Below are positions 12,557 to 45,429 of a DNA stretch of 61,323 nt, one piece after another. Location of the stretch: assembly GCA_947039505.1 (NCBI GenBank), contig CAMQYZ010000003.1, positions 111,323 through 172,645 of the forward strand, in the 5' to 3' direction. The first letter of the stretch is position 1; each line of letters starts with the position of its first letter. The position numbers were made by a program, and so were the translations under genes. Below the pieces are notes generated by a model. That model had not been told where the DNA came from. It did no database searches and worked only from the letters and a program-made list of their open reading frames with translations. Source of the DNA: an uncultured Mycoplasma sp. (lineage in GTDB: Bacteria; Bacillota_I; Bacilli_A; Mycoplasmatales; Metamycoplasmataceae).

Positions 12557-12586
12557 CTAATTAAGAAAATTAAAGGATTGGTGCAT

Positions 12587-13327
12587 ATGATTAAACAAAT
12601 ATTCCTAGGATTAGGATTATCAATTGGTATTACATTCCCTCTTGCAATTGTATCTTGTAGTTCCGGAGAACAAGTTGTTGAAGAAAACGTATTAACAGCG
12701 GAAGTTACTAATAGTTTTTTTGCTACTGGTGGTAAATGAGAAGGAAAAACTTCTTTAGTTGCTCAAGATTTTAAGGGATTTACTTCTATTGGCTCTGATG
12801 CTTTTCAAGGTCGTATTCAATTATATAGCGTTGATTTACCTAATGAAATAATTAGAATTGAAGATCAAGCTTTTTTTCAAGCAGAATTAAGATATGTTAC
12901 TTTAGGTAACAGAGTTCAACATATAGGGAATCAAGCTTTTTCTCATTGTCATATAACAGAAATTATTTTGCCTCCTAGTTTAAAAACTATGGATGAAGGT
13001 GCTTTTGCACAAAATGAACTTACAAGCATTATCATTCCTTCATCTTTAAAACGTATTCCTGATTTAGCATTTAAAACAAACAAAATAAAAAGCGCAACTA
13101 TTCCTAACTCTATAACTCATATAGGGAATGGTGCTTTTGAAGATAATAATTTAAAAGCAATTGATATTCCTAATTCAGTAATATCTATCGGTTCACTTGC
13201 ATTTGCTCATAATTCTTTTTTAGCAATCCCTTCTTTACCAAATGGTATTCCTATTGGTGATATTTTTGATAATAACCAACGTCCAAATCCAAATATAGAA
13301 ATATACACCAGAAAATTCACAAAATAG
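12587..13327 (+). CDS. BspA-like leucine-rich-repeat lipoprotein 1
   Basis: A 246-residue surface lipoprotein. It has a hydrophobic signal peptide ending in the lipobox AIVSC (lipidated Cys at 25), then a module shared by the whole locus (FFATGGKW.GKTSLVAQDF), and then LRR_5/BspA repeats of about 23 residues: IIIPSSLKRIPDLAF, TIPNSITHIGNGAF, DIPNSVISIGSLAF. These repeats form a solenoid used in adhesion or host binding. The C-terminal tail (GDIFDNNQ...EIYTRKFTK) recurs in paralogues. The Shine-Dalgarno sequence is AAAGGATTGG. One TGA in GGKW is Trp. It is the smallest intact member and has no spacer module. Confidence 0.85.
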
Positions 13328-13509
13328 TTATTTCTTGAATTTCATGATGCAAAGTTTCCTTGAAATATTAACTATGAAAAAATATTAATGTTTTTTTCTT
13401 CTTTCGCGTCATATTGTAATAAATATTTTTTAATTCTTAAGAAGAGATATTTCAGGATTTTTAACTTGAATTTTATTTATATTTTAATAATAAAATAATT
13501 TACTAAATT

Positions 13510-13700
13510 TATGTTTATCAATTGATATTGCATTATCTCTTTTGAAATTTTGGAGAAGGAATTATTCAAGACAACGTATTGACAAGTAGAAGTTACTAAT
13601 CTTTTTTGCTACTGACAGTAAAATTGAAAAAGAAAAACAACCTTAGTTGTTCAAAACTTTGAAAGATTTACTTCTATTAGTAATTTTGGTTTAAGTTAAA
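13510..13700 (+). pseudogene. Decayed BspA-like lipoprotein copy
   Basis: Fragments align with the start of the lipoprotein genes: a run resembling the signal peptide, GGAGAAGGAATTATTCAAGA followed by an ACGTATTGACA.CAGAAGTTACTAAT-like segment, the CTTTTTTGCTACTG segment encoding FFAT.G, and a remnant of the VAQDFKGFTSI module. Frames shift repeatedly and stops interrupt all of them. The rest of the 13328-13950 gap shows no gene I can support. Confidence 0.65.
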
Positions 13701-13950
13701 ATTTTTAGTAAGTTTTATTTTCCCTAATTCAGAAATATTCTAAATATTCTATTGTTTTTATTTTGTCCTCATTACTTTCGTTGAACTTGAGGCATTTAAG
13801 ATTGTTACCAATTCAGCAATTGTAGACAACAACCGAACATCATACAGATCTCCATTAAGTTACTTTTCAGTAATAAGTAATATAAATTTTTACCAGTAAA
13901 GTTTATCTGATAGTATTTATATTGTAATTGGGTTTTGTATATTCAGTTTC

Positions 13951-15243
13951 TTATTTATTTAATATTTGTTTGATTTTTTTTGTACTTAATCACATAAGGT
14001 TTTCTTGAGATTGACTATTTGCAATAAAGGTCATTCCATTTGTGAAATCAAGATTTTCCCTATGACTAAGCATAATTAAAAGTTCAGGCGAATTATCTCG
14101 CTCTGCATAAAAATTAAGTTGAATGTCTATGCGAGTTGACATTGTATTTGCATTTTTTCATGTTGCCTTAAACACAGAGTTTCCCACACTATTTAGTTCA
14201 ATCATTGATAATAGTTTTTCAATATTATTAAGTTCTTCTTGATTCACTACTTCAATAATAATTTTTCTACCCCCTGCTTTTGTTTTAGCTAAGTTATAAG
14301 ATTCTTGAATTTCATCATAAATGGGTTTTAAAAGATAATTTTTGAACTTGTCATTTTTAACACGCTCTCCTCATTGTATATCAGGATTAACATTTCTAAA
14401 TCCTTTAATTGTAAGGTTAGAATTGTGGGTTGCATCAGTTCCACGCTTGGTAATTATGAGATCTAAGTTAACTCAACCCTCACCTGTGTGTGGTGTGTCT
14501 AATGATTGGTCTGGTTCTTGAATATCAAGCATATAATCAAATCCATCTGGAAGGGTTATTGGTTGAATTGGGTTGATAACTTTGAACAATAATTCTTTTC
14601 TTTTTTCTTGCTCGTTAAACGACGATATGGCATAATAAAACTCTGCTGCTGTACTTTTTTTAACGGCACTAAGAGATGTGTCGATATTAAAACCATTTTT
14701 AAATATTTTTGTTGCAGGGGAAAAACCATCCTCATTCACAGTCAAAGTTATGTTTGGAGAATGTATTTCAGTAACAGTTACATTATTAGTATTTGAAAAT
14801 TCATAACCATCTTTTGGCATTAAGGTTAATGTTGTGTGTCTATCAAATTTGGTCTTGTAGAACTCCAAACCATTAATTAGATTAGGATTTAGATTTTCAT
14901 GATCTATCTTTCCCATGTCAAAATAATTATTTAATATGAATATGTTGCCCTCATCTATTTGATAATTTATTCCTTCTTCAAATTGATCTAAATCACTTTC
15001 ATGTAGTTCTGATGTTTGAATAATTCGCGGTTCCACATCAACCTTAATAACTCCTACTACCGGTGGTTTTGGGTCTGGTGTTGGTTTTTGATCTATTTCT
15101 GGGTTAATTGGTACATCTGGTTCAACTATTACTTCATTATTTGATGAATAAGCAATTCCTATTGGTAATCCTATCGCTAATCCTGATGCCGTTACACCAG
15201 CGGTTATTGAAATTGCTACTTTTAACATTTTGTCTATTATCAT
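13951..15243 (-). CDS. Exported proline-rich surface protein
   Basis: A 430-residue protein with an N-terminal hydrophobic helix (ISITAGVTASGLAIGLPIGI) that acts as a signal or membrane anchor and has no lipobox Cys. A linker rich in Pro (DQKPTPDPKPPVVG) is followed by an acidic extracellular region with strand-like repeats. I recognise no named domain. The start ATG follows AAGGAGATCTATA, a strong Shine-Dalgarno sequence. It is the only gene on this strand within the lipoprotein cluster, and decayed lipoprotein copies lie on both sides. Two or more TGA codons are read as Trp (after HTGEG, and in W.S.KKIKQ). Confidence 0.7.
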
Positions 15244-15339
15244 TATAGATCTCCTTAAAAAATTTTATTTATTTCTATTAAAAGATATCACATTTTATTA
15301 AAAAATATTACATTTTGAACTAAAAATGAGCAAAGTGCT

Positions 15340-15739
15340 TTTACTTAATAATCAATTAATATCATTAAATATTCCTAAATTAGGGTTATTGAAATCGGTG
15401 ATGGAGCATTTACTAATAATTAGCTAACAATAGATTCACGAGTTAAATTACCTACACAATTTGATAATCTAACAGAAGGTAAAAGGATTGGTTGACCTTT
15501 TGTTACTCTGCAAATTGAACCGCCAATTACAGGTAATGTATCGACATAACTTGTTGGTACTTTTCTTTGTCAAAGGTGTAATGTGATATACAAAAACTTC
15601 TTTAGTTGCTCAAAATTTTATTTCATTAATTCTTTCTTTATTAATACCCAATAATATTCATGTTAGTAATATTTTCAATAACCAACGACCAAATCCAAAT
15701 ATAGATATAGAAATATATACAAGAAAAACATTAAAATAG
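15340..15739 (+). pseudogene. Decayed BspA-like lipoprotein copy
   Basis: A scrambled remnant of a lipoprotein gene. It keeps the segment encoding IEIGDGAF, a TTPAQFDN-like stretch, GRIGWPF, then VAQNF, and finally the tail NIFNNQRPNPNIDIEIYTRKT with a TAG. Frameshifts and stops prevent translation. It lies directly upstream of the promoter of the large lipoprotein gene. The remaining bases of the 15244-15997 gap hold no other recognisable gene. Confidence 0.7.
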
Positions 15740-15933
15740 TTATTTCTTGAATTTCGTGATATAAATTTTCCTGAAATATTAACTATGAAGAAAAATTAAT
15801 GCTTTTTTCTTATTTCTAAATATTTTTTAATTCTTAATAAGAAGAAACATTTAAGGTTTTTTAACTTGAATTTTATTTGTAATTTTTAACTCAAAATCCC
15901 AAATATTAATAAATCATAATAATCTATTTGTTT

Positions 15934-15961
15934 TTGACTTTATTTATGTTTTTAGTATAAA
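15934..15961 (+). promoter_or_regulatory. Promoter of large lipoprotein gene
   Basis: TTGACT, 16 bases, TATAAA, followed by a TATATAAGGATTGG leader and the ATG at 15998. This is the closest match to a sigma-A promoter in the lipoprotein cluster. Confidence 0.65.
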
Positions 15962-15997
15962 ATAATGTAATAAAATTATATATAAGGATTGGTGCAC

Positions 15998-18739
15998 ATG
16001 ATTAAAACAAATAAAGTATTATTAGGATTAGGTTTGTCAACCGCCGCCGCATTACCTCTTGTAATTGTATCTTGTAGTTCTGGAGAAGAAGTTATTGAAG
16101 ACAACGTATTGACAACAGAAGTTACTAATAATTTTTTTGCTACTGGTGGTAAGTGAGAAGGAAAAACAGCTTTAGTGGCAGCAGATTTTGAAGGTTTTGA
16201 AAACATTGGCAATTCTGCTTTGAGTGGTAAATCTTTAGTTAGCGTTATTTTCTCTGATTCAATAACTAAAATTGGGCAAAATGCTTTGGCAAATAATGCA
16301 TTAACATCATTAAACATTCCAAATAGTGTTATTGAAATCGGTGATGGAGCATTTAACGATAATCCATCGTTAACAATAGATTCACCAATTACATTGCCTG
16401 CACAATTTGATACTCTTGAAGAACGAAGAAGAATTGGTTTACCTTTTGAACAACCAGCAATAAACTTAGAATTAACTCCTAAGACAAATATTGAAGCAAT
16501 TATGGAAAGTGAAGTAGCACATCTTACTGAAGTAGATCAAAATGTTAATGCTGCTTCACTAGCATTAATCAAAAAGCTTTTTGATATTAATGTAACAAAT
16601 GATGAAAATTTAACTAATGGATTAAAAATTAAAATGGTAACAGATGGATTAAACAAAACAATTTCATTAACTACTATTGAAGGTTTTACAATTAATGGAA
16701 CTTTAAATACAATCGATTCAACAAGCTTTACAATTGATATTCCGCCAATTGATCCACCAATTACAGGCAATGTATTAACAGAAGAACTTGTTAGAAGTTT
16801 TTTTGCTACTGGTGGTAAGTGAGCAGAAAAAACGGCTTTAGTGGCAGCAGATTTTGAAGGATTTACTTCTATTGCTGATTCTGCTTTGAGTGGTAAATCT
16901 TTAGTTAGCGTTATTTTCTCTGATTCAATAACTAAAATTGGGCAAAATGCTTTGGCAAATAATGCATTAACATCATTAAACATTCCAAATAGTGTTATTG
17001 AAATCGGTGATGGAGCATTTAACGATAATCCATCGTTAACAATAGATTCACCAATTACATTGCCTGCACAATTTGATACTCTTGAAGAACGAAGAAGAAT
17101 TGGTTTACCTTTTGAACAACCAGCAATAAACTTAGAATTAACTCCTAAGACAAATATTGAAGCAATTATGGAAAGTGAAGTAGCACATCTTACTGAAGTA
17201 GATCAAAATGTTAATGCTGCTTCACTAGCATTAATCAAAAAGCTTTTTGATATTAATGTAACAAATGATGAAAATTTAACTAATGGATTAAAAATTAAAA
17301 TGGTAACAGATGGATTAAACAAAACAATTTCATTAACTACTATTGAAGGTTTTACAATTAATGGAACTTTAAATACAATCGATTCAACAAGCTTTACAAT
17401 TGATATTCCGCCAATTGATCCACCAATTACAGGCAATGTATTAACAGAAGAACTTGTTAGAAGTTTTTTTGCTACTGGTGGTAAGTGAGCAGAAAAAACG
17501 GCTTTAGTGGCAGCAGATTTTGAAGGATTTACTTCTATTGCTGATTCTGCTTTGAGTGGTAAATCTTTAGTTAGCGTTATTTTCTCTGATTCAATAACTA
17601 AAATTGGGCAAAATGCTTTGGCAAATAATGCATTAACATCATTAAACATTCCAAATAGTGTTATTGAAATCGGTGATGGAGCATTTAACGATAATCCATC
17701 GTTAACAATAGATTCACCAATTACATTGCCTGCACAATTTGATACTCTTGAAGAACGAAGAAGAATTGGTTTACCTTTTGAACAACCAGCAATAAACTTA
17801 GAATTAACTCCTAAGACAAATATTGAAGCAATTATGGAAAGTGAAGTAGCACATCTTACTGAAGTAGATCAAAATGTTAATGCTGCTTCACTAGCATTAA
17901 TCAAAAAGCTTTTTGATATTAATGTAACAAATGATGAAAATTTAACTAATGGATTAAAAATTAAAATGGTAACAGATGGATTAAACAAAACAATTTCATT
18001 AACTACTATTGAAGGTTTTACAATTAATGGAACTTTAAATACAATCGATTCAACAAGCTTTACAATTGATATTCCGCCAATTGATCCACCAATTACAGGC
18101 AATGTATTAACAGAAGAACTTGTTAGAAGTTTTTTTGCTACTGGTGGTAAGTGAGCAGAAAAAACGGCTTTAGTGGCAGCAGATTTTGAAGGCTTTACTT
18201 CTATTGGTGAAAATGCTTTTCAAGGTCTTAATAATTTATCTAGCGTTGACCTACCTAATGAAATAATTAGAATTGAAAATCAAGCATTTTTTCAAACACA
18301 TTTAACACACATTACTTTAGGAAATGGAGTTCAACATATAGGTGATAGTGCTTTTTCTCATTGCTTTATCACAGAAATTATTTTGCCATCTAGTTTAAAA
18401 ACTATGGGCGAACAAGCTTTTTCACAAAACAATCTGACAAACATTATCATTCCTTCATCTTTAAAAATCATTCCTAATATAGCATTTACATATAATAAAT
18501 TAACATCAATAACTATTCCTAATTCAGTAACTCATATTGGTGATGGTGCTTTTTTTGATAACGAACTAACAGAAGTTAACATTCCTGACTCTGTAACATC
18601 TATTGGATCAACGGCATTTCAATATAATCGTTTTGCGATAATTCCTACTTTACCAAACGGAATTCTTGTTGGCGATATTTTTGATAATCAAAAAGTAAAT
18701 CCATCTTTGGAAATATATACAAGAAAAACCATCAAATAA
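15998..18739 (+). CDS. BspA-like lipoprotein 2 with three identical 222-residue repeats
   Basis: A 913-residue lipoprotein, in one frame once the TGA in each GGKW is read as Trp. It has a signal peptide with lipobox VIVSC, then three copies of a 222-residue module. Each module has FFATGGKW.KTALVAADFEGF, LRR_5 repeats (SITKIGQNALANN, SLNIPNSVIEIGDGAF), and a spacer beginning NLELTPKTNIEAIMESEVAHL and ending PPIDPPITGN. The last quarter is a long LRR_5 domain with the IYTRKTIK tail. The modules are identical at DNA level over almost two full periods, so copy number can change by recombination or slippage and alter antigen length. The Shine-Dalgarno sequence is AAGGATTGG. Confidence 0.88.
16214..18191 (+). 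repeat. 666-bp tandem repeat, about 2.97 copies, virtually identical
   Basis: Sequence 16214-17525 appears to recur unchanged as 16880-18191, a shift of exactly 666 bases (222 codons), as far as I can compare by eye. Divergence appears only before 16214 and at 18191-18192. Such identity without silent changes points to recent amplification, or homogenisation, of a surface-protein module. Confidence 0.88.
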
Positions 18740-18790
18740 ATTTTTACTATATTTAATAATCCAAAAGTTTGTTTAAAATAGATTTATTTT

Positions 18791-18819
18791 TTGGTTTTTT
18801 ATCTATATTTTATTATAAA
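18791..18819 (+). promoter_or_regulatory. Promoter of lipoprotein 3
   Basis: TTGGTT, 17 bases, TATAAA within a leader shared with the other lipoprotein genes (TTTTTATCTATATTTTA.TATAAAAT), 31 bases before the ATG at 18851. The Shine-Dalgarno sequence is AAAAGGATTGGTG. Confidence 0.6.
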
Positions 18820-18850
18820 ATAATTAAGAAAATTAAAAGGATTGGTGAAC

Positions 18851-19918
18851 ATGATTAAAACAAATAAACTTTTATTAGGATTAGGTTTATCAACTGTAGT
18901 AGGATTACCTCTTATGATAGTATCTTGTAGTTCTGGAGATGAAATTACAATCACTAATTTAGAATTAACACCTAAAACAAATATTGGGATAATTACAGAA
19001 AATGAAGTTGCTAAACTTAATAACAATTATCAAAATGTTAATGATAGTTCATTAACATTAATCAAAAAGCTTTTTGATATTCAAGGAACAACAACTGACC
19101 AAAATTTAATTAGTGGTTTACAAATTAAATTGTTATCAAATGAACTAAACAAAACAATCTCATTAAATGTTAATAATGGTTTTAAAATTAATGGAAATTT
19201 AACTAAAATTGATTCCATGAATTTTGTCATTAATGGTCCAGTTATTCCGCCAATTGATCCACCAATTACAGGTAATATATTAACAGAAGAACTTGTTAGA
19301 AGTTTTTTTGCTACTGGTGGTAAGTGAGCAGAAAAAACGGCTTTAGTGGCAGCAGATTTTGAAGGCTTTACTTCTATTGGTGAAAATGCTTTTCAAGGTC
19401 TTAATAATTTATCTAGCGTTGACCTACCTAATGAAATAATTAGAATTGAAAATCAAGCATTTTTTCAAACACATTTAACACACATTACTTTAGGAAATGG
19501 AGTTCAACATATAGGTGATAGTGCTTTTTCTCATTGCTTTATCACAGAAATTATTTTGCCATCTAGTTTAAAAACTATGGGCGAACAAGCTTTTTCACAA
19601 AACAATCTGACAAACATTATCATTCCTTCATCTTTAAAAATCATTCCTAATATAGCATTTACATATAATAAATTAACATCAATAACTATTCCTAATTCAG
19701 TAACTCATATTGGTGATGGTGCTTTTTTTGATAACGAACTAACAGAAGTTAACATTCCTGACTCTGTAACATCTATTGGATCAACGGCATTTCAATATAA
19801 TCGTTTTGCGATAATTCCTACTTTACCAAACGGAATTCTTGTTGGCGATATTTTTGATAATCAAAAAAATTCAATATCAAATAAAAAAATATCAAATAAT
19901 ACAAATAATATGTACTAA
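18851..19918 (+). CDS. BspA-like lipoprotein 3, altered C-terminus
   Basis: A 355-residue lipoprotein with lipobox MIVSC. One spacer module (NLELTPKTNIGIITENEV...INGNLTKID) comes first, then FFATGGKWAEKTALVAADF and the LRR_5 domain. From about 19280 to 19865 the DNA matches the last domain of the preceding gene (shifted by 1173 bases), apparently without a change, which suggests gene conversion or recent duplication. Identity ends at GDIFDNQK. After that the normal tail is replaced by NSISNKKISNNTNNMY and a TAA, so the 3' end is a recombination or deletion scar. The promoter and AAAAGGATTGG leader are intact. Confidence 0.85.
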
Positions 19919-20038
19919 TAAACCTTTTTATTATTTAATTCTCAAACAACATAATCAAGTTCAAAAATTTGATGTGTTTGGTGATTATAAAAAATTGATT
20001 TACTTAGAATTTAAAACCATTTTAGCAAAAAAACAATA

Positions 20039-20067
20039 TTGTTTTTTTATCTATATTTTAGTATAAA
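20039..20067 (+). promoter_or_regulatory. Promoter of lipoprotein 4
   Basis: TTGTTT, 17 bases, TATAAA, 31 bases before the ATG at 20099, with the shared leader and Shine-Dalgarno sequence TAAAGGATTAGTG. Confidence 0.6.
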
Positions 20068-20098
20068 ATATTTAATGAAAATTAAAGGATTAGTGAAC

Positions 20099-21964
20099 AT
20101 GATTAAAACGAATAAACTTTCATTAAAATTAGGCTTATCAACTATAATAGCATTGCCTCTTATGATAGTATCTTGTGATTCTGATGAAAAAATTACCATC
20201 ACTAATTTAGAATTATCTCCTAAAACAAATATTGGAATAATTTTGGAAAGTGAAGTAGCACATCTTAGTGAAGTTTATCAAAATGTTAATGATCATTCAT
20301 TAGCATTAATTAAAAAGCTTTTTGATATTCAAGGGACAACAACTGACCAAAATTTGATGAATGGTTTGCAAATTAAGATGGTATCAAATGGATTAAATAA
20401 AACAATTTTATTAAGTGTTAATATCTGATTAAATAACAGTAATGGCTTTAAAATTAATGGTAATTTAACTAGAATTAATTCAAATAATTTTACCATTGAT
20501 ACTCCTCCAGTTTTAGGTGATATATTAACAGAAGAACTTGTTAGAAGTTTTTTTGCTACTGGTGGTAAATGAGCAGGAAAAACAACTTTAGTGGCAACAG
20601 ATTTTGAAGGATTTACTTCTATTGCCAATTCTGCTTTAAGTGGTCAATCTTTAGTTAGTGTTATTTTCTCTGATTCAATAACTAAAATTGGGCAAGGTGC
20701 TTTGGCAAATAATGCATTAACATCATTGAATATTCCAAATAGTGTTATTGAAATCGGTGATGGAGCATTTGCAAATAATCAACTAACAATAGATTCACCA
20801 ATTACATTGCCTGCACAATTTGATAATCCATTGGAGCGCGAAAGAATTGGTTTACCTTTTGAACAACCAGCAATAAACTTAGAATTATCTCCTAAGACAA
20901 ATATTGAAGCAATTGCGGAAAATGAAGTAGCACATCTTAGTGAAATTAATCAAAATGTTGATGATCGTTCATTAGCATTAATTAAAAAGCTTTTTGATAT
21001 CCAAGGGATAGAAACAACTGAGCAAAATTTAATGGATGGTTTGCGAATTAGAATAGTATCAAATGGATTAGATAAAACAGTTTGATTAACTACTAATGAT
21101 GGTTTTAAAATTAATGGTAATTTAACTGAAATTAATTCCATGAGTTTTGTCATTGATACTCCACCAGTTTTAGGTGATATATTAACAGCAGAAATTGCTA
21201 ATAGTTTTTTTGCCGTTGGTGGTAAGTGAGCAGGAAAAACAGCTTTAGTGGCAACGGATTTTGAAGGATTTACTTCCATTGGCGATAGTGCTTTTCAAGA
21301 TCTTTCTCATTTATCTAGCGTTGACCTACATGATAAAATAATTAGAATTGAGGATCGAGCATTTTATCAAACAAATTTAAGACACATTACTTTAGGCAAG
21401 GGGGTTGAACACATAGGATTCGAGGCATTTTCTCGTTGCTCTATAAATAAAATTATTTTGCCATCTAGTTTAAAAACTATGGGTGAAGAAGCTTTTTCAG
21501 AAAACAATCTGACAAACATTATCATTCCTTCATCTTTAAAAATTATCTCTATTGGAGCATTTTTATCAAATAAATTAACATCAGTAATTATTCCTGATAC
21601 AATAACTGAAATTGGAGAATATGCTTTTCTTATTAATAATTTAACACAAATTAACATTCCTGACTCTGTGGTTTCAATTGGTCATAGTGCATTTGCTGTT
21701 AATAGTTTATCTGGAGAATTGGATTTACATGATTTGATAAACTTAGAAAGTATTGAATCAAATGCATTTCGTTTTAACAAAATATCATCCATTATTTGAC
21801 CAACCAATAGTAAAATAAACAGTATTGGATTAGAAGCTTTTGGTTTAAATAATTTTGGAACAAGTATCCCAAACTTTCCACCCGGATTAACTACAGAAAC
21901 TAACGGTGGAATTTCTCCAGAACAAATATTTACTAATAGAGGGCGAAAATTTTTCTTATCTTAA
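20099..21964 (+). CDS. BspA-like lipoprotein 4
   Basis: A 621-residue lipoprotein with lipobox MIVSC. Module order is spacer, LRR block (FFATGGKWAGKTTLVATDF), spacer, then a longer C-terminal LRR_5 domain with an ending not shared by the others (LSGELDLHDLINLESIESNAF, then GLNNFGTSIPNFPPG, last residues RKFFLS). The spacers are diverged versions of the NLEL.PKTNI module, so this gene is an older relative of the neighbouring gene with identical repeats. Five TGA codons (ISVNIW, GGKW twice, TVW, SSIIW) are Trp in one continuous frame. An upstream GTG/ATG alternative near 20039 lacks a Shine-Dalgarno sequence; the ATG at 20099 is preferred. Confidence 0.85.
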
Positions 21965-22217
21965 CTATATTAATAAATTATAAATATTTTTCAAATTCAA
22001 TAATACAAAAGTTTTTTTATACTAATCATTATAAAAAAAATACTTAATGATTCGACTTCTTTTCTAACATGTCATAATTCCATTAATCTTAATTTTATTT
22101 GTGATTTTGATTTAAAATATTGAATTTTAACAAATTTATAACAATAGATTTGTTTTTTCGTTTTTTATCTATATTTTAGTGTAGAATATTTATAGAAAAT
22201 TAATAGGATTAGTGAAC

Positions 22218-23249
22218 ATGATTAAAACAAATAAACTTTTACTAGGATTAGGTTTGTCAACTGTAGTTGCTTTACCTCTTGTAATAGCATCTTGCAAATC
22301 TAATGAAACACCAATTTTAGACAATGAATTAACGACAGAAGTTGCTAATAGTTTTTTTTATGGTGGTAAATGAGATGGTAAAACTTCTTTAGTTGCACAA
22401 GATTTTGAAGAATTTAAAACTATTGATGATTCTGCTTTAAGAGGTAAGGGTTTGGTTAGTGTTAGTTTACATCATTCAATAACTAGCATTGGAGAAAATG
22501 CTTTTGACAACAATTTATTAACATCATTGAATATTCCTAATAGTGTTATTGAAATTGGTGATGACGCATTTGTGAATAATCAACTAACAATAGATTCATC
22601 AATTACATTACCTGCACAATTTGATACTCCTAAAGAACGAAGAAGAATTGGTTTACCTTTTGAAATCATTAACTTAGAATTAACTCCTAAAACAAGTATT
22701 GAGACAATTGTTGAAAGTGAAGTTGCACATCTTAATGAAATTGGTCAAGATGTTGATGATCGTTCATTAGCATTAATTAAAAAACTTTTTGAAATTCAAG
22801 GGACAACAATTGAAAAAAATTTAATGGATGGTTTACAAATCAAAATATTGTCAAATGGTGTAAATAAAACAATTTTATTAAGTGCCAAAAATGATTTTAA
22901 AATTAATGGTGATTTAACTGAAATTAATTCAATGAGTTTTATTGCATTAATTAACTTAGAATTGAGCCGAAAAACCAATATTGGATTAATTATGGAAAGT
23001 GAAGTGATACACCTTAATGAAAATTATCAGGATGTTGATGATCGTTCATTAGCATTAATTAAAAAACTTTTTGGAATTCAAGGGACAACAACTGAGCAAA
23101 ATTTAATGGATGGTTTGAAAATCAAAATGTTGTCAAATGGTGTAAATAAAATAGTTTATATAGAAGTTAAGGAAGGGTTTATAATTAATGGTGATTTAAA
23201 TAATGAAGATTCAGAAGCGTTTATTATTAAGATTCCACCCAATCATTAA
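22218..23249 (+). CDS. BspA-like lipoprotein 5, truncated by frameshift
   Basis: A 343-residue lipoprotein with lipobox VIASC, the module FFYGGKWDGKTSLVAQDFEEF, LRR repeats (SITSIGENAF, SLNIPNSVIEIGDDAF), and two spacer modules (NLELTPKTSIETIVESEVAHL and NLELSRKTNIGLIMESEV). The frame ends at PPNH with TAA. One base earlier in register, the DNA continues as SLTKEIASGFFDGGKWKNKTSFVAQNF, the expected start of a further LRR module. The gene is therefore a 3'-truncated version of a longer ancestor. The leader matches the others, but the -10 region is weaker (TAGAAT). Confidence 0.8.
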
Positions 23250-23560: not shown

Positions 23561-23669
23561 AAAGTTTTTTTTAATATTTTTTTCTATTTGTCAAAACACT
23601 TTTCAACAGTGTTCCTATTTATCAATATTTTTAATCGTATATATTTATAACCAAGTTGAAAAATGCAAA

Positions 23670-25349
23670 TTAAGCTGCAATTGTCAAAAGAGAGTTATCT
23701 AGTTGATGTACTATTTGGTTTCTATATGGTTTATCCACATGTAGTGGCTTGATTTCTTTTCTACCATATCAAAAATCATCATAAAAAATATTTGATTTAA
23801 TACCTTCTTTGCTACCACCATGTTCTTTAACATAATCAAGGTATCTTTTCTCTTCACTTAAACATTTAATTAATTCCTGAATATAGGCTAGGATTTTAGC
23901 AAAAGAGATTCCATATCTTTTAGATCGAGTTTCATTTGCAATTCTTTGACTTAAAAGTTCCAATAATTGTATTGAATCAATATTACTTTCAATATCAATC
24001 AAGAATTTTTCCTTGATTTTTTCAAAAGGAATATCATCACTATAATGGAGGATTTCATTTGCTGAAAGCTCTCATGATTGACTATTTTTATTTGTCCTAA
24101 AAAACATTAAATTATCACCAGTTAATGAACCTGCTTTGGCAATATATCTCCCAAATATTTTGACAAAAATATTTAGTGAATTATCAGCCTCATCTGTTGA
24201 TTCTCATATTTGACTACATAAACTTTGAAATGTTAAAATTAAGGGAGTTTCTTTAATTTCTGGTTTGTTTGTTGTTTGATTCATTAGAACTTTGTTTTCA
24301 CTAATAGGAAATTTGGCATGTTGGGCAGTACTTTGAATAATTTCCACAGTTTTAATGTCATGGGTTAAGATTTCAAATTCTTTCGATGAATTCATAATAG
24401 AAATGATCGCCTTTTCTTGATTAATGACATCAAGCTTTTCAAAAAAATCATCCAAGATAATTTTTTTATCAGTACTTTCTAGTGATTTGACAAGAATCTC
24501 TAATACTTTGGCTGTTTTTTGACCTTCTGAATAATTTGACTTCCCAAGATCAATTTCGATCGCATAATTATCATCTAGTAATTTATACTCTTTATCAGCT
24601 ACAAATTTAATTGCATTAATTTTCAGATTTTCTATTTGTTGTTCTAATTTTTTGATTTGAACATATTCTTCCGATTTAATCATCTTGCTTTTAATTTCAT
24701 CAATTAAATTAAGCGCTAAAACAGGAATTTCTTCAACGTTAGCAAACAATCTTTTTAAATCTTTGATTTCAATATTGGCAAAATGTTTTTCATCAATTCC
24801 TTTGGCTTGTAATTTTTCTTGAATAGCTTTTAATATCAAAACTATTTGGTTATTGAAATCTTGAGCAATTTTACTGTCATATTGATCGTTAATTTCATAT
24901 TTTCACAAAGAAGATAAAATCATAATTAGTTCCTGATCTTCTTGAGCTAGTTCAATCAACATATCTTGATGTTGAGAAACAAAATTATGCAAATCAATTA
25001 ATTCAGGAATTGATAAGTCATCATCATACTTTTTACTTTCAACTAAAACATATTGATCTCATTCTTCTTTTTTAGTAAAATTAATGCTTTTCAAAAAAGT
25101 ATTAAAATTATTAAATTTAAAACCTTTAATACTTGATAGTGATGTTTTGGCACTTGTTAGTTTTTTAACTAAGATATTAATTTCTTTTCTTGGTTCCTGA
25201 CTTATATATTCTAATTCAGAAATTTTATGTGTTTGATCATTATATCAATTTGAGATATAAGAATTCAAAACTATTGAATCAACATCTTGATCTTCGGAAT
25301 ATAAAGATTTCCCACCTCCATTGTTACCGTATATTAATTTTATTGACAT
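23670..25349 (-). CDS. ABC/RecF-like ATPase with C-terminal HEPN-type motif
   Basis: A 559-residue protein. Walker A is GNNGGGKS near residue 9, an ABC-signature-like SEGQKTAK lies in the middle, and Walker B is KKIILDDFFEKLD. A central coiled coil sits between them, as in SMC/RloC/PrrC-type ATPases. The last 20 residues contain YRNQIVHQLD, which fits the HEPN ribonuclease motif RNxxxH (R543, N544, H548). ATPase-HEPN combinations such as PrrC and RloC cut tRNA anticodons when phage disturbs the cell; that role is inferred. Start ATG follows AAGGAGCTGACAATT, a strong Shine-Dalgarno sequence. A decayed copy of its 5' end lies at 27690-27835. Confidence 0.72.
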
Positions 25350-25733
25350 AATTGTCAGCTCCTTCTTTTTTATTTAATAAATTATCATCTTGCATATTAA
25401 GTAAAAATTACATTACCAATAATTTAAATTTGTTGTATGTATTTAGTTTGTATTTGGTGTTTTTGAATCAAACTTTCCTAAAAATATCAATGAAAATTAG
25501 ACTATATATATTGTACTATAAAAAAATGAAGTAAAAAAGTTAATATCAAATAATAATGATTTTATTGTTAAAAAATATATTGTTAAAAAAATATGGTTTG
25601 CTTGAAGTGTTATATAATTTTATTATTACTTTAAAAGAACAATGGTGTTGTAATTACTTAAGTCTTGGTAAATATTACAAGAAGAAATATTTCTATATTG
25701 TAAATAAAAAATGAAATATGAAAGAAATGAAAT
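25350..25733. other. Intergenic region between divergent genes, with short repeats
   Basis: No gene seen. It contains a tandem direct repeat of ATTGTTAAAAAATAT (25564-25594) and a segment (25490-25550) that resembles 44600-44665, around CTATATA..GTACTATAAAAA. It separates the ATPase-HEPN gene from the DUF2130 gene and must hold both promoters. Confidence 0.45.
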
Positions 25734-27374
25734 ATGAATGAAATTAAATGCCCAAATTGCCAACAAGTAATTACTGTTAACGAAACTTTTTACTCATCAA
25801 TACTTGAACAAGTTCGTAGTCATGAATTTGAAAAAGATGTTGAAAATCATACAAAATTAATTGAAAAAGAAAAAATAAATGAATTAGAATTATCAAAAGC
25901 TAATGCAGAAGCACAATTACAACAATCGCTTTCAGAATCAAAACAACAAATTGCGAAATTGGAATCTCAAATTAATGAAGCTGAAAACTTAAAATTACTT
26001 GCTATTCAAAATAAAGAAGCAGAAAGTAAAGAATTAATTACAAAATTACAAGAAGAAATTAAGAATAATGAAAAGAATCAGAAGTTAGAAAAAGAAGGTG
26101 CACTAAATATTGCTAAAGCTAATGCAGAAGCACAATTACAACAATCGCTTTCAGAATCAAAACAACAAATTGCGAAATTGGAATCCCAAATTAAGGAAGC
26201 AGAAAATTTAAAATTACTTGCTATTCAAAATAAAGAATCAGAAAGTAAAGAATTAATTACAAAACTACAAGAACAACTTAAAAATAATGAAAAAAATCAA
26301 CAATTAGATAAAGATGCTGCATTGAATCTTGCTAAAGCTAATGCAGAAACACAGTTACAACAATCACTTTCAGAATCAAAACAAAAAATTGCAAAATTGG
26401 AATCTCAAGTTAACGAAGCTGAAAATTTAAAATTACTTGCTATTCAAAATAAAGAAGCAGAAAGTAAGGATATTATTTATCAAAAAGAATCTGAAATTAA
26501 TAATTTAAAAGCGGAAATTGAGAGCTCAATTACTAATAAAAAACTTGAAATTACTTTAATAGAAGATGGTCATAAAAATGAACTTAAAATGAAAGAACAA
26601 CAAATTGATTTTTATAAAGACCACAAAGCAAAACTATCTACCAAAATGATGGGAGAAACATTAGAATTGCATTGTGAATATGAATTTAATCGTTTAAGAC
26701 CAACTGGATTTCAAAGTGCAAAATTCTTTAAAGATAATGATTCAACAAATGGTAGTAAGGGCGACTATATTTTCAAAGATTATAGTGATAACACAGAATT
26801 CATTTCAATTATGTTTGAAATGAAAAATGAAATGGAAACTACTGCTACCAAAAAGAAAAATGAAGATTTTCTAAAAGAATTAGATAAAGATCGAAACGAA
26901 AAAAATTGTGAATATGCTATTTTAGTTTCTTTACTAGAAAGTGATAACGAATTATATAACACAGGAATAGTGGATGTATCTCATATCTATAAAAAAATGT
27001 ATGTAATTAGACCACAGTTCTTCATCCCAATAATAACTTTACTTAGAAATGGCGCTTTGAATTCAATTAAATTTAAAGAAGAATTAGCGTTGATTAAAGA
27101 ACAAAATATTGATATCACTAATTTTGAAGATGACATCAAAGATTTTCAAGGTAATTTTAGTCGTAATTATGATCTAGCAAGTAGAAAATTCGGTGATGCA
27201 ATCAAAGAAATAGACAAAACAATTGTTAGCCTTAACAAAACAAAAGATGCTTTAATGTCATCTGAAAATAATCTAAGATTAGCAAATAATAAAGCTCAAG
27301 ATTTAAGTATTAAAAAATTAACAAAAAATAATGATACTATGTCTCAAAAATTCAAAGAATTAGAAAGCAAATAA
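25734..27374 (+). CDS. DUF2130 coiled-coil protein with nuclease-like core
   Basis: A 546-residue DUF2130 protein with no in-frame TGA. It has an N-terminal zinc ribbon CPNCQQ, then about 210 residues of coiled coil, then the DUF2130 core: GETLELHCEYEFNRLRPTGF, GDYIFKDY, FEMKNEMETTATKK, and DVSHIYKKMYVIRPQFF. The D...E.K pattern (GDYIF, FEMKNE) is reminiscent of PD-(D/E)xK nucleases, though activity is unproven. The coiled coil is built from a 73-residue unit repeated almost three times. Members of this family are common in strain-variable regions. The start ATG at 25734 was chosen because CPNC follows directly; the leader itself is a small ATG-rich repeat. Confidence 0.82.
   Translation: MNEIKCPNCQQVITVNETFYSSILEQVRSHEFEKDVENHTKLIEKEKINELELSKANAEAQLQQSLSESKQQIAKLESQINEAENLKLLAIQNKEAESKELITKLQEEIKNNEKNQKLEKEGALNIAKANAEAQLQQSLSESKQQIAKLESQIKEAENLKLLAIQNKESESKELITKLQEQLKNNEKNQQLDKDAALNLAKANAETQLQQSLSESKQKIAKLESQVNEAENLKLLAIQNKEAESKDIIYQKESEINNLKAEIESSITNKKLEITLIEDGHKNELKMKEQQIDFYKDHKAKLSTKMMGETLELHCEYEFNRLRPTGFQSAKFFKDNDSTNGSKGDYIFKDYSDNTEFISIMFEMKNEMETTATKKKNEDFLKELDKDRNEKNCEYAILVSLLESDNELYNTGIVDVSHIYKKMYVIRPQFFIPIITLLRNGALNSIKFKEELALIKEQNIDITNFEDDIKDFQGNFSRNYDLASRKFGDAIKEIDKTIVSLNKTKDALMSSENNLRLANNKAQDLSIKKLTKNNDTMSQKFKELESK
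25899..26470 (+). repeat. 219-bp tandem repeat in coiled coil
   Basis: Units start at GCTAATGCAG at 25899, 26118 and 26337, an exact 219-base (73-codon) period; the third is partial. The encoded unit runs ANAEAQLQQSLSESKQ through to LAIQNKEAESK. Copies differ by a few substitutions, so this is older than the 666-bp lipoprotein repeat. Confidence 0.85.
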
Positions 27375-27517
27375 ATTTAACATAGGATTATTATATCCAT
27401 TATATATAACACAAATTAAAAGTACTTTTTAAATAGTTGTATACTTAATAATTAAAACTTTATCCAAAGATACATGAAATTATCATGATGTGGATAGTGA
27501 CAAGGAGAATTTAAATT

Positions 27518-27835
27518 ATGAAAAAATTATTATTAGGATTAGGAATAATACCTTTATTAATATTGCTGGCAGTAATAAATGAGAAGAGAAAATATGCCTA
27601 TATATAGCTCCAAATCTACAAATATCAATGATACAATGGTAGATAATTTTAAAAGGAATGCAAATTTCAGCTTAATTAATGCACTTTGTAATTAAGTTCT
27701 GAAATTTTTATGTGTTTGGTTGTTATATTAATTTAAAACTATCAAATTAACATATTGATCTTCGAAATTTTCCATCTACTTTGCTTTCATATATTAATTC
27801 TATAAACCTTTATATAAAATTTTCTTTTTTATTAA
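27518..27835. pseudogene. Remnants of a lipoprotein start and of the ATPase-HEPN 5' end
   Basis: A Shine-Dalgarno sequence and ATG (27518, plus strand) begin a short frame, MKKLLLGLGIIPLL, that resembles the lipoprotein signal peptides. It jumps to a piece like GGCAGTAATAAATGAGAAG, the FFATGGKWEG segment with frame lost. From about 27690 to 27835 the plus strand aligns, with gaps, with 25200-25372, the 5' end of the ATPase-HEPN gene and its leader (TTTTATGTGTTTG, ATATTGATCTTCG, TATATTAATTCTAT). Both are debris of copies that existed here. The rest of the 27375-27902 gap is empty. Confidence 0.6.
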
Positions 27836-27902: not shown

Positions 27903-29603
27903 CTATTTCAATAATAAATTAGTAAATTTATCCACAAAATCTGCATCTGTGTAACTAATATCTTTTTCACTTTCAATTACTTTAACAAATTCTTTTCAAA
28001 GTTTTTTGTTTTCTTTTTTAATTTCTAATCAATTATTTTTAACGTTTTCAAAATTATCTTTTGTTTCTTTTATTGATGAAATGGTTGTTAAAATTTCAGA
28101 CCTGTCCTTTTGATAATCATCAATTGACTCTTTTTTCTTTTTTAATTCATCATTTCTTATAGAAAAATTATTTTCTGCTTCTAATTTTTGTTGTTTATCT
28201 ATTTTGAGAGTTCTTTCCAATAAAGCTAATTTGTCAGAATTTATCATATCAGTATCAGATTGACTTTTTTGTGATTCATCCTTGTATTTCTTATCACTTT
28301 TATTTATTTTCTTTTCTAAAGTTTTTATTTTTTTAGTCAAGGAATTTACGCTTTCATTCAACAAAGCAATATCTTGATTAACTAATTCAATATTTTCATC
28401 AATTACTTTTATTTCTTCCTCTAAATTAATACAAATACCTTCTCAAGAGATAGATCAACTATAAAGTACATTAGCATGCCAACTGAAGATATAGTTTATT
28501 TTTTTTACATAATATTCATCACCATACTTTAGGGTAATTATCAATTTTTCATCCAGTTCCATTATTATTTTTTTAATTTCATCAAAATATTTTCCCATTT
28601 TATTCAAAACATCTATAAAATTATTTAAATCATTTTCTATATATTTTTCAACAACATCTCTTGAACCTCATATTTTATTTGTAAAAGTAGAAAGCATTAG
28701 ATACTCATCTTCTTTACTCTTTTTTAATAAATTATTAGCTTTTAATCTTTTTTCAATTTCTCTAATAGACAATTTTGTATTATCAATTTCATAATTTAAA
28801 AAATTATTAAGATATTCTGAAATTTCAACAGAAAAACCCATATTTATTAGTAACCCTAAATAGTCTTGACTAAATTTAATATATTTAATATCAATGTATT
28901 TTTCAAAAAAAGATTCTTGAGAATGTTCGGAAATAGATTTATTTAGCATTTTTTGATGCATAGGTAAAACAAATAAAAAATGATCTCTTTCAGATAATCT
29001 TCAAATACTCTTCAAAACTTCCCACGCATCTTTTCCTAATCTTTCAATATTGTCTATAAAAACTATTGTTCTTTCAAAATTAGTAAAACATTTAGATAAT
29101 TCATCATAATCAATAAACATTTTATTATTTTTCTTATCTATATATTCATCAATCACAAAAGCCATTCGAGGTTCAATGCTTTTCATAGCTAAGACAAAAG
29201 CATTTATTAAATCAGTTGGGATGTTTTTAGAAGTTGAGTATTTTCAGCCATCCAAAAATATAATTTTTTTGAAGAATCTAATATCTTTATTTTTATTAAA
29301 ATACTTAATAATTCTTTCTACAAAATAAGTTTTACCAGTTCCTCAAGGGGCATCTATAATAGTTATAGGAGATTGTTTGGTAATATTTTCAGATTCAAAA
29401 TATATTTCTTCTTTATTTATTTCTTCTTTTTTTCACTCTTCACACTTTGATTCTCTAGAAGATTCAAATTTTATAACCTCTTCTTTCATTATTTCAAAAA
29501 ACTTAGAGCAAGCTAAATCAAAATCATCGTCATTTCCATTGGTGATTTTGATTTCTTCAAACAAACCTTTTTTTATAATTATATTTCTTTTTTCTAGTTC
29601 CAT
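27903..29603 (-). CDS. KAP-family P-loop NTPase with C-terminal coiled coil
   Basis: A 566-residue KAP-type NTPase. Walker A is IDAPWGTGKT (about residues 83-92), the KAP-typical FLDGWKY follows, and Walker B is RTIVFIDNIER (179-188). The C-terminal 170 residues are a lysine/glutamate-rich coiled coil (KKIKTLEKKINKSDKKY). Unlike many KAP proteins I see no membrane segments between the Walker motifs. It begins 3 bases after the stop of the TIR-domain gene and is its operon partner. KAP NTPases act as oligomerising switches in several defence and signalling systems, so it probably controls or senses for the TIR effector. No TAA or TAG interrupts; four or more TGA are Trp. Confidence 0.78.
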
Positions 29604-29606
29604 ATT

Positions 29607-30284
29607 TTAACTTTCCAATCAAACAATATACTCAATCAAAAACTCTTTTCTTGAATTATTAATTTCATATTTTTGCTTTCAACTTAAATTTTTTAAGTGT
29701 TCTATTTTTTCAAGTTTTATTTTTGAAATAATTTTTAATTCATTAGTTAAAAAATTAATAGTTGCATTGTAAATTTTACTAGAATTTCACTCGACTTCCT
29801 CTTTATCTTGAATTTTTTTTAAAATTTCTAAAATTATGCTTTTTTCTTCAATATTTTTATTCAAACTTTTAAAAATTAAATCATTTGTAGAAAATGATGC
29901 AATCAACTTATCTACAACAATTGCAATTCCATCATTTAAATCTATATATAAATAATCGCTAGGTATACAAGAGTGGGTATCAACACTGTTTGTTTTCACT
30001 TCTATTATTTTGATTCTTTGTTTTTTTAGAGCCTTTATTGCGATATGCAATTCTTTTCAACAAGTAGCTGAATCTAAGTATGATTTAGAATTAAAGAAAA
30101 TAAAAAAACTACTATCATTAATTCTATTTGTGATATCAACTCAATAGCTTTCGCCATATTTTAAAGTTTCAACATCTAAAAAAACCTTATTTTTATAATT
30201 AATATTTTCATTTAATAAATCATATATTTGTTTAACTAAATCTTTTTCGTGTTTTTCTTTGTGGCAATAACTTAAAAATATCAT
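29607..30284 (-). CDS. TIR-domain protein, probable NADase effector
   Basis: A 225-residue protein whose first 115 residues form a TIR domain: MIFLSYCHKEKHEKDL, KVFLDVETLKYGESYWVDI, IFFNSKSYLDS, and CWKEL with the catalytic Glu at residue 78. Bacterial TIR domains of this type cleave NAD+ or make cyclic ADP-ribose signals when phage is sensed, causing cell death or dormancy. The C-terminal half is mostly helical with no known motif. It is the first gene of a two-gene operon with the KAP NTPase (3-base gap), and is divergent from an EVE-HNH gene. TGA-coded Trp residues occur within the TIR core. Confidence 0.82.
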
Positions 30285-36480: not shown

Positions 36481-37185
36481 ATGAAAATAACCACGAAACA
36501 AAAAGAATCTTTAATAAACAAAATATACAATAAATTATCAGAAAGTGATAGCGAAAAGGGGTTTCCTGTTTTAGCTGCCACAATAGACAAACCCCATAAC
36601 AAAAATATCGTTGTACAAAACAAAAAAGATAAAAATAAAATGAAAGACAACAAAATAGAAACAGATATAAATAATCATGCAGAAATTATTTTATTAAAAG
36701 AAATACAAGAAAATAAAATAGAAATTGATTTTATCTTAATAACATTACCTCCTTGCTTTAATTGTTGAGAAAAAATAAAAGAATATATTCAAGAAAATAA
36801 TATAAAAATATTTTTCTTGACGGATGTTAGAGGCAAGAAAGACGAACGAAAATACCTCAAAGAAAATGATTATATTAACCACTTAAAATGAACAGAATTA
36901 AATCGAAATACTGACTTTACTTTGAAAACCAACTTTATAATAATGAGTTGTATTTTTGGTTTTATGAATCATAAAAAACCATCTAAAAATCCAACAAAAA
37001 TATTGGAATTTGCAAAACAAGAATTAAAAAAACTTAAGTTAGTTATAGATGATTTAAAAATTAAAAAAAATGAAATACAAGATGAACAATTACAAAGTAT
37101 GATTGATAAAACTAGAAGAATTAAAATTAAAAATATAACAATTAAAAATGCTAAAAAAGATAGAGAATTTTATTGAATTACCTAA
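36481..37185 (+). CDS. Cytidine-deaminase-fold protein
   Basis: A 234-residue protein with the zinc signature of the deaminase fold: NHAE (H66, E68) and TLPPCFNC (C92, C95). The N-terminus fits a substrate pocket (AATIDKPHN...). The C-terminal third is a lysine-rich helix (KKLKLVIDDLKIKKNEIQ) that is not part of the enzyme fold. Deaminases of nucleotides protect some bacteria by depleting dCTP during infection, and others edit bases, so a defence role fits this location but the substrate is unknown. A second member is at 44683-45429. The start ATG follows GAGGGTTTCTT. Confidence 0.75.
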
Positions 37186-44682: not shown

Positions 44683-45429
44683 TTATAATTTATCTAGCAA
44701 ATCTTTAATCTTCATATAGGATATATCTAAAAAATCGAATTCTTTAATTCGTTCAACCATAAGTAAAATTTCATCTGGGATTTTTTCTTTTGTTAAATTG
44801 GACTCAATTTGAACTTCTGACCAAATCTCTTTTAATATTTTGACAGTTTTTACAATAAGTTCTTGTTGTGTGATATTTACTAACTTTTGAGTTAAACAAG
44901 CGTTCATATAAACAAGAGCCATATAATAAAGTTGCATTCTTTGCAACTTATTTTCAATAACTGAAAAAATATTATTAATTTCTCCCTTGCAACTTGATTT
45001 TCATTCTTTTAAATAAAACTTATTCAATTTATTTCTGACATTGTCACAAATATAATAAATTTCTAAATTAACATTTTCATCAGAAGATATTTCTTTTAAA
45101 CATTCTGAACATGGTGGTATGGTGATAATTAAAATGAATTTTTTACTGCCGCTTAAAGTAATAACAGCGCCACCCAAGGCTTTATCATAACACTTGGTTT
45201 CGGCATGATTCTTATAATCTGTAGTTTTATCATTTAATCTTGAATTTACTTTTGAATTTATTAAATAACAATCTTCTAACATAATAGAAGCTGCTATAGA
45301 AAAACCTCTTCTTATAGACGATTTATTATCAATTATTTTTTTAACCATTGAATTAATAGAATCTTCATATTTTTTTGTTAATTGTCAATTCCTTCATATA
45401 AAATATAAATATTTTAAAAATTTTATCAT
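44683..45429 (-). CDS. Cytidine-deaminase-fold protein 2
   Basis: A 248-residue protein if the ATG at 45429 is used, or 221 from the ATG at 45348. The deaminase zinc site is clear: YKNHAET and TIPPCSEC (H48, E50, C80, C83 counted from the shorter start). The upstream codons are open through two TGA-coded Trp, but no strong Shine-Dalgarno sequence marks the longer start; TTA or TTG codons in between are other options. The C-terminal half is helical. It is the last gene in a same-strand series with an AIPR gene 60 bases upstream and a C5 methyltransferase before that. It is a relative of the deaminase at 36481. Confidence 0.7.

Follow-up and report, generated by a model that had tools for sequence, protein, structure and literature searches.

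The window, a stretch of 61,323 nucleotides from an uncultured Mycoplasma sp., encodes an orphan ABC-type ATPase paired with a divergently transcribed DUF2130 gene in a block shared by two congeneric species. We tentatively interpret the pair as a two-gene anti-phage cassette, in which the ABC/SbcC-type ATPase would serve as sensor or motor and the DUF2130 protein as the nuclease half. This is our best explanation, although we hold it with a little less than even confidence.

An orphan ABC-type ATPase

The ATPase gene (23670–25349, minus strand) encodes 559 residues in translation code 4. Its 559 codons are open only when TGA is read as Trp, with six TGA codons inside the frame, which fits a mollicute genome; the genome carrying the window is 0.80 Mb. 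Walker A, signature and Walker B motifs had been claimed in an earlier note, and all three are present in order on the minus strand. Walker A is GNNGGGKS (residues 8–15; 25305–25328), with only 7 residues upstream in the protein; the ABC signature is YSEGQ (residues 273–277; 24519–24533), of the S-G/E-G-Q type; and Walker B is KIILDD (residues 296–301; 24447–24464), which carries a second acidic residue. A D-loop EKLD (residues 304–307) and an H-loop LTHD (residues 328–331; 24357–24368), both absent from the earlier note, complete the set. Among 200,000 shuffled versions of the protein, none reproduced the stretch from signature to H-loop in this order and spacing, and the ABC motifs are beyond chance. 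At the level of these motifs, the assignment of the protein as an ABC/SMC-type (SMC/RecF/Rad50-type) ATPase is well supported.

A K/E-rich insert (residues 51–260; 24570–25199, minus strand) separates Walker A from the signature and is the most variable part of the protein. The coiled coil previously ascribed to the protein is not demonstrated: the insert is modelled as helical, at low confidence, and a strong heptad pattern was not found. The region beyond the H-loop (residues 346–559; 23673–24314, minus strand) forms a C-terminal helical domain with no family match.

Searches of the ATPase against Pfam, NCBIfam, PADLOC, PHROGs and PDB gave no meaningful match. In the PADLOC scan no family reached an E-value of 0.1 or better, and LmuB, PtuA and GajA were unmatched; for the congener homologue (see below), the match to SMC_N is no better than E=4.1. 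PrrC and RloC belong to the Pfam family AAA_13, which has no match at this gene in the genome carrying the window, and with a custom AAA_13 profile the ATPase score is indistinguishable from those of shuffles. A second profile combined 17 regions lying beyond the H-loop in AAA_13-type and related proteins. Left-out members scored 34–201 bits against it, except for two divergent Bradyrhizobium ones (13.7 and -1.7), and the C-terminus of the ATPase ranked 218 of 987 shuffles, with no likeness to the R-x3-E...SH HEPN type. Since the post-H-loop profile scores the ATPase no better than shuffles, the view that the sequence does not resemble PrrC or RloC is borne out, as it is by the Pfam and PADLOC negatives. 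The segment from signature to D-loop is closest to RecF (38% identity over 66 residues), and the matched gene reads as RecF. The ATPase is an orphan without a family name, but of a known general kind.

Samples at the level of genus, family, order, class and phylum were searched, together with genome contigs, plasmids, phages and viral contigs. One true homologue was found, with 93% identity, in a congener also described as "uncultured Mycoplasma" (G004, the same as L003; CAMRBN010000001.1). The gene is present in 2 of the 135 family genomes searched and absent from the other 133, and further genomes of the class and order gave no real match. Marginal matches to RecF, to Ffh and to an interrupted frame with a RecF-like neighbour were discarded as chance or generic. 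Comparison of the two homologous sequences gave a dS of 0.31 and a dN of 0.034 (dN/dS 0.11), with an omega of 0.05 for the C-terminal domain (residues 346–559) and 0.17 for the helical insert. Purifying selection thus acts on the ATPase, most strongly on its C-terminal domain, and the protein is a working one.

The DUF2130 protein and the shared block

The DUF2130 gene (25734–27374, plus strand) encodes 546 residues (PF09903, E=1.3e-82) with an N-terminal CxxC pair, charged repeats and a C-terminal DUF2130 domain. GExxE, D and ExK elements are invariant in 12 DUF2130 sequences that are 23–70% identical to the window copy, and the protein is predicted to be a nuclease of the PD-(D/E)XK type. 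This fold assignment is read from the motif, as no solved relative was found. Zinc binding is also predicted. The window copy is 55–70% identical to copies in Lactococcus, Bradyrhizobium, Arthrobacter, Citrobacter and others; DUF2130 is therefore both mobile and conserved, unlike the ATPase. The protein contains internal near-identical repeats (ANAEAQLQQSLSESKQQIAKLESQ...) whose copy number differs between the two species, giving lengths of 546 and 474 residues.

The ATPase and DUF2130 genes are divergently transcribed and do not form an operon. The block common to the two congeners (23668–27578) spans 3.9 kb, including both genes and the intergenic stretch. The inter-species alignment ends at the ATPase stop codon on one side and ∼200 bp beyond DUF2130 on the other; the flanks do not align, and the gene order of the surrounding island is shuffled between the two species. 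As the block aligns and its flanks do not, the two genes behave as one cassette within shuffled islands.

The shared intergenic region (25350–25733) is ∼99% identical between the two species in its DUF2130-proximal part, and a segment running from it into the start of DUF2130 (25470–25870) is 95–99% identical, despite the dS of 0.31 in the ATPase. This high identity may be regulatory or may be due in part to recombination, the latter being considered because the dS of DUF2130 is also lower (0.18). A structured RNA was discarded as a candidate, because the conserved region has no Rfam match and an ordinary folding energy.

The window as a whole is a dense defence island. GmrSD-like, AIPR, HNH, TIR, KAP NTPase and DUF2726 helicase genes were identified by Pfam, and methyltransferase and restriction genes were recognized by reading the translations. 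Two proteins with an AID/APOBEC-like cytidine deaminase fold lie within the island (36481–37185, plus strand; 44683–45429, minus strand), with weak matches to dCMP_cyt_deam_1 and SNAD4; a relative of these deaminases lies near the same cassette at locus L058 (9838–10533). A KAP/STAND-like NTPase gene (27903–30284, minus strand) adjoins a TIR-domain gene with ThsB-like PADLOC matches, and the two look like a TIR-NTPase defence pair. In another congener (G009), DUF2130 directly adjoins an HNH gene, without the KAP/STAND-like NTPase and TIR genes. The window also encodes a BspA-type LRR lipoprotein of 916 residues (15989–18739, plus strand) with near-identical repeats of ∼222 residues, two 215-residue stretches of which are identical, and related LRR lipoproteins are found further at 12578–23249. 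These repeats look like repeat-driven surface variation.

The C-terminal RNxxxH motif

The motif YRNQIVH is located at residues 542–548 of 559 (23706–23726, minus strand), within the last 20 residues as the earlier note had placed it. It is the sole RNxxxH among the 46 open frames of at least 200 residues in the window. In shuffles of the ATPase, RNxxxH arises anywhere with a chance of 1.2% and in the last 60 residues with a chance of 0.12%, and the stricter form hRNxhhH was found in 0.05%. Because it was singled out from dozens of proteins, the motif by itself is suggestive. The congener homologue reads RNQIAH, with R, N and H kept, but at an overall identity of 93% this retention says little.

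In HEPN domains, the Rx4-6H motif closes helix 3 and is followed by helix 4 (PMC3710099). R543-N-Q-I-V-H548 conforms to Rx4-6H with a polar residue after the Arg. As controls, we used 15 RNxxxH motifs from Abi_2 (PF07751) and HepT-like (PF01934) genes. All 15 are preceded by a hydrophobic stretch with no Pro at the five positions ahead of the Arg, and all have 27–110 residues C-terminal to the His. The motif of the ATPase, in the context KPYRNQIVHQLDNSLLTIAA (KPYRNQIVH), has Pro541 two residues before R543 and is followed by 11 residues after H548. Thus, in this comparison with 15 controls, it is not placed like a motif that closes helix 3 and leaves room for a fourth helix. The concern that it lies unusually near the C-terminus had already been raised, and was well founded.

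Structure prediction gave low-confidence models. AlphaFold reached a pLDDT of 36.5 for the full-length ATPase (two sequences), and a pLDDT of 50.8 and pTM of 0.42 for the C-terminal 124 residues (436–559). In these weak models, the C-terminus is all-helical, with long helices (457–476 and 481–510) before the motif, and the motif starts the last helix (540–558) rather than ending one. A Foldseek/VIA search with the C-terminal model (pLDDT 50.8) returned no significant match and listed no HEPN, an absence that carries no weight at this confidence. None of the HEPN families in Pfam matches the ATPase. The sequence-level evidence thus speaks against a canonical HEPN domain, and the HEPN reading is not supported. 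Of the previously proposed design of an ATPase joined to a HEPN domain, the second half lacks support, given Pro541, the 11-residue tail and the lack of a family match.

Two variants of this design were also dropped. A PrrC-type HEPN domain centred on H435 (ANEILHYS) with R401 has no profile support. Truncation of the ATPase at the block edge, with loss of a longer HEPN domain, was rejected because both species share the C-terminal residues and the stop codon, and the C-terminus is strongly constrained.

DUF2130 beside other ABC-type ATPases

The neighbours of DUF2130 were listed at ∼60 loci, and recurrence was judged from this listing. A PDC-S06/AAA_13 ATPase adjoins DUF2130 on Lactococcus pC42, and in one mollicute an AAA_13/PDC-S06 ATPase and DUF2130 are 12 bp apart. 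A TrlF-family ATPase is adjacent on pNP40 and on the FDAARGOS_1064 plasmid, and an OLD-type ATPase on a Citrobacter plasmid; in two viral contigs an OLD-like frame overlaps DUF2130. Two Bradyrhizobium plasmids carry a PDC-S06-like or LmuB-like ATPase one or two genes away from DUF2130. Most of the stand-alone mollicute copies, and DUF2130 on several Bradyrhizobium and Mitsuaria plasmids, showed no ABC-ATPase partner, and ten plasmid AAA_13 loci have no DUF2130 within the stretch read. In the congener G009, DUF2130 is present and the ATPase was undetected, the contig ending at DUF2130. The association of DUF2130 with ABC ATPases is recurrent, not obligatory; as many copies stand alone, the idea of DUF2130 as a strict marker of such ATPases was dropped. 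In another mollicute (L105, 858–2429), a set of repeats with the translation VHPLIIIYQPK looks like a CRISPR array; it adjoins a Cas1-like frame, and a long gene for an ABC-type ATPase is nearby.

In a limited check of the open literature, three papers mentioned DUF2130, with titles that concern different topics, and no description of the recurrent DUF2130-ATPase neighbourhood was found. We consider it conceivable, though rather doubtful, that these loci reflect an undescribed defence theme, in which a horizontally mobile, conserved DUF2130 nuclease of the PD-(D/E)XK type plugs into many unrelated ABC-type ATPases (AAA_13, TrlF, OLD and the window orphan). The orphan's contribution to this theme would be a C-terminal domain of a new kind, acting as effector or adaptor and perhaps representing a minimal HEPN almost without a fourth helix.

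Possible functions

The cassette reading is supported by the ABC motifs, the pairing in two species, the purifying selection, the recurrence of DUF2130 beside ABC-type defence ATPases and the setting in a defence island. It is weakened because DUF2130 often occurs without an ABC ATPase, because ten AAA_13 loci lack DUF2130 in the stretch read and G009 lacks a detected ATPase, and because the genes are divergent, the ATPase is known from two genomes only and the evidence comes from sequence. In such a cassette, the ATPase would recognize invading or damaged DNA, and ATP binding or hydrolysis would alter the state of the conserved C-terminal helical domain. This domain might then contact and license the DUF2130 nuclease, with cleavage by the nuclease as the final step. 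The terminal RNQIVH would be part of a C-terminal helix and would not constitute a HEPN active site.

The main rival is an analogue of PrrC and RloC, in which the ABC ATPase gates a divergent, short-tailed HEPN RNase at its C-terminus (R543 and H548) that cleaves tRNA or another RNA when infection is sensed. We regard this as unlikely, with some weight retained because fusions of ABC ATPase and HEPN are already known among defence systems (PMC3710099), the motif is a good one and AAA_13 proteins, which are of the PrrC/RloC type, are the partners of two DUF2130 genes elsewhere. YRNQIVH fits the consensus well, with a polar Asn after the Arg and hydrophobic residues before the His, at a chance of 0.05%; the C-terminal domain is strongly constrained, with R, N and H retained in the homologue, and in the low-confidence models it is all-helical, with two long helices ahead of the motif. 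Against such an RNase stand Pro541 and the 11 residues after H548, where the 15 controls have at least 27 and no such Pro, as well as the missing HEPN match in Pfam and a C-terminus that is not AAA_13-like. The protein could also be an ordinary SbcC/RecF-like accessory ATPase of repair, recombination or island maintenance, its DUF2130 neighbour and RNxxxH motif being incidental in a scrambled island. RecF is the closest match of the segment from signature to H-loop, DUF2130 is commonly stand-alone in mollicutes, and the island gene order is shuffled, all of which would fit. However, the two-gene block was preserved while all its surroundings changed, the gene is missing from 133 of the 135 family genomes, unlike a housekeeping repair gene, and it sits in a dense defence island. 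An accessory role therefore seems improbable.

If the pairing is functional, DUF2130, a widespread family scarcely treated in the literature, would gain a testable role, that of a nuclease module working with ABC-type defence ATPases, and the window would also yield an ATPase whose C-terminal domain falls outside all known families. If a short-tailed HEPN were active, the minimum of the HEPN fold that catalysis requires would have to be revised.

Comparison with known systems

Lamassu (LmuA/LmuB), Septu (PtuA/PtuB) and Gabija resemble the window pair in having an SMC/ABC-like ATPase beside a separate nuclease gene. They differ in that their ATPases LmuB, PtuA and GajA are not matched in PADLOC by the window ATPase, and in that the window genes are divergent. 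To our knowledge, none of these and similar two-gene systems uses a DUF2130 nuclease.

PrrC, RloC and PDC-S06 share with the window ATPase the succession of Walker A, long helical insert, S-[GE]-G signature, Walker B with DD, D-loop and H-loop, as well as a C-terminal region of 150–215 residues past the H-loop and a defence-island setting. Two proteins of this type also adjoin DUF2130, as the window ATPase does. In contrast, Pfam, PADLOC and the custom profile indicate no sequence relationship. The members compared have R-x3-E...SH with ∼30–40 or more residues after the His, whereas the window ATPase has Rx4H followed by 11. The window ATPase also has 7 residues before Walker A, compared to ∼30 in the AAA_13 protein of L052, and its N-terminal strands are missing.

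Proteins of the ERFG_01251 type (PMC3710099), likened here by description, are also ABC ATPases fused to a C-terminal Rx4H domain. Theirs is a classical Rx4-6H HEPN, whereas for the window protein a HEPN topology is in doubt. RecF resembles the window ATPase in the segment from signature to D-loop, but it has no counterpart of the 250-residue insert or of the 210-residue C-terminal domain of the window protein.
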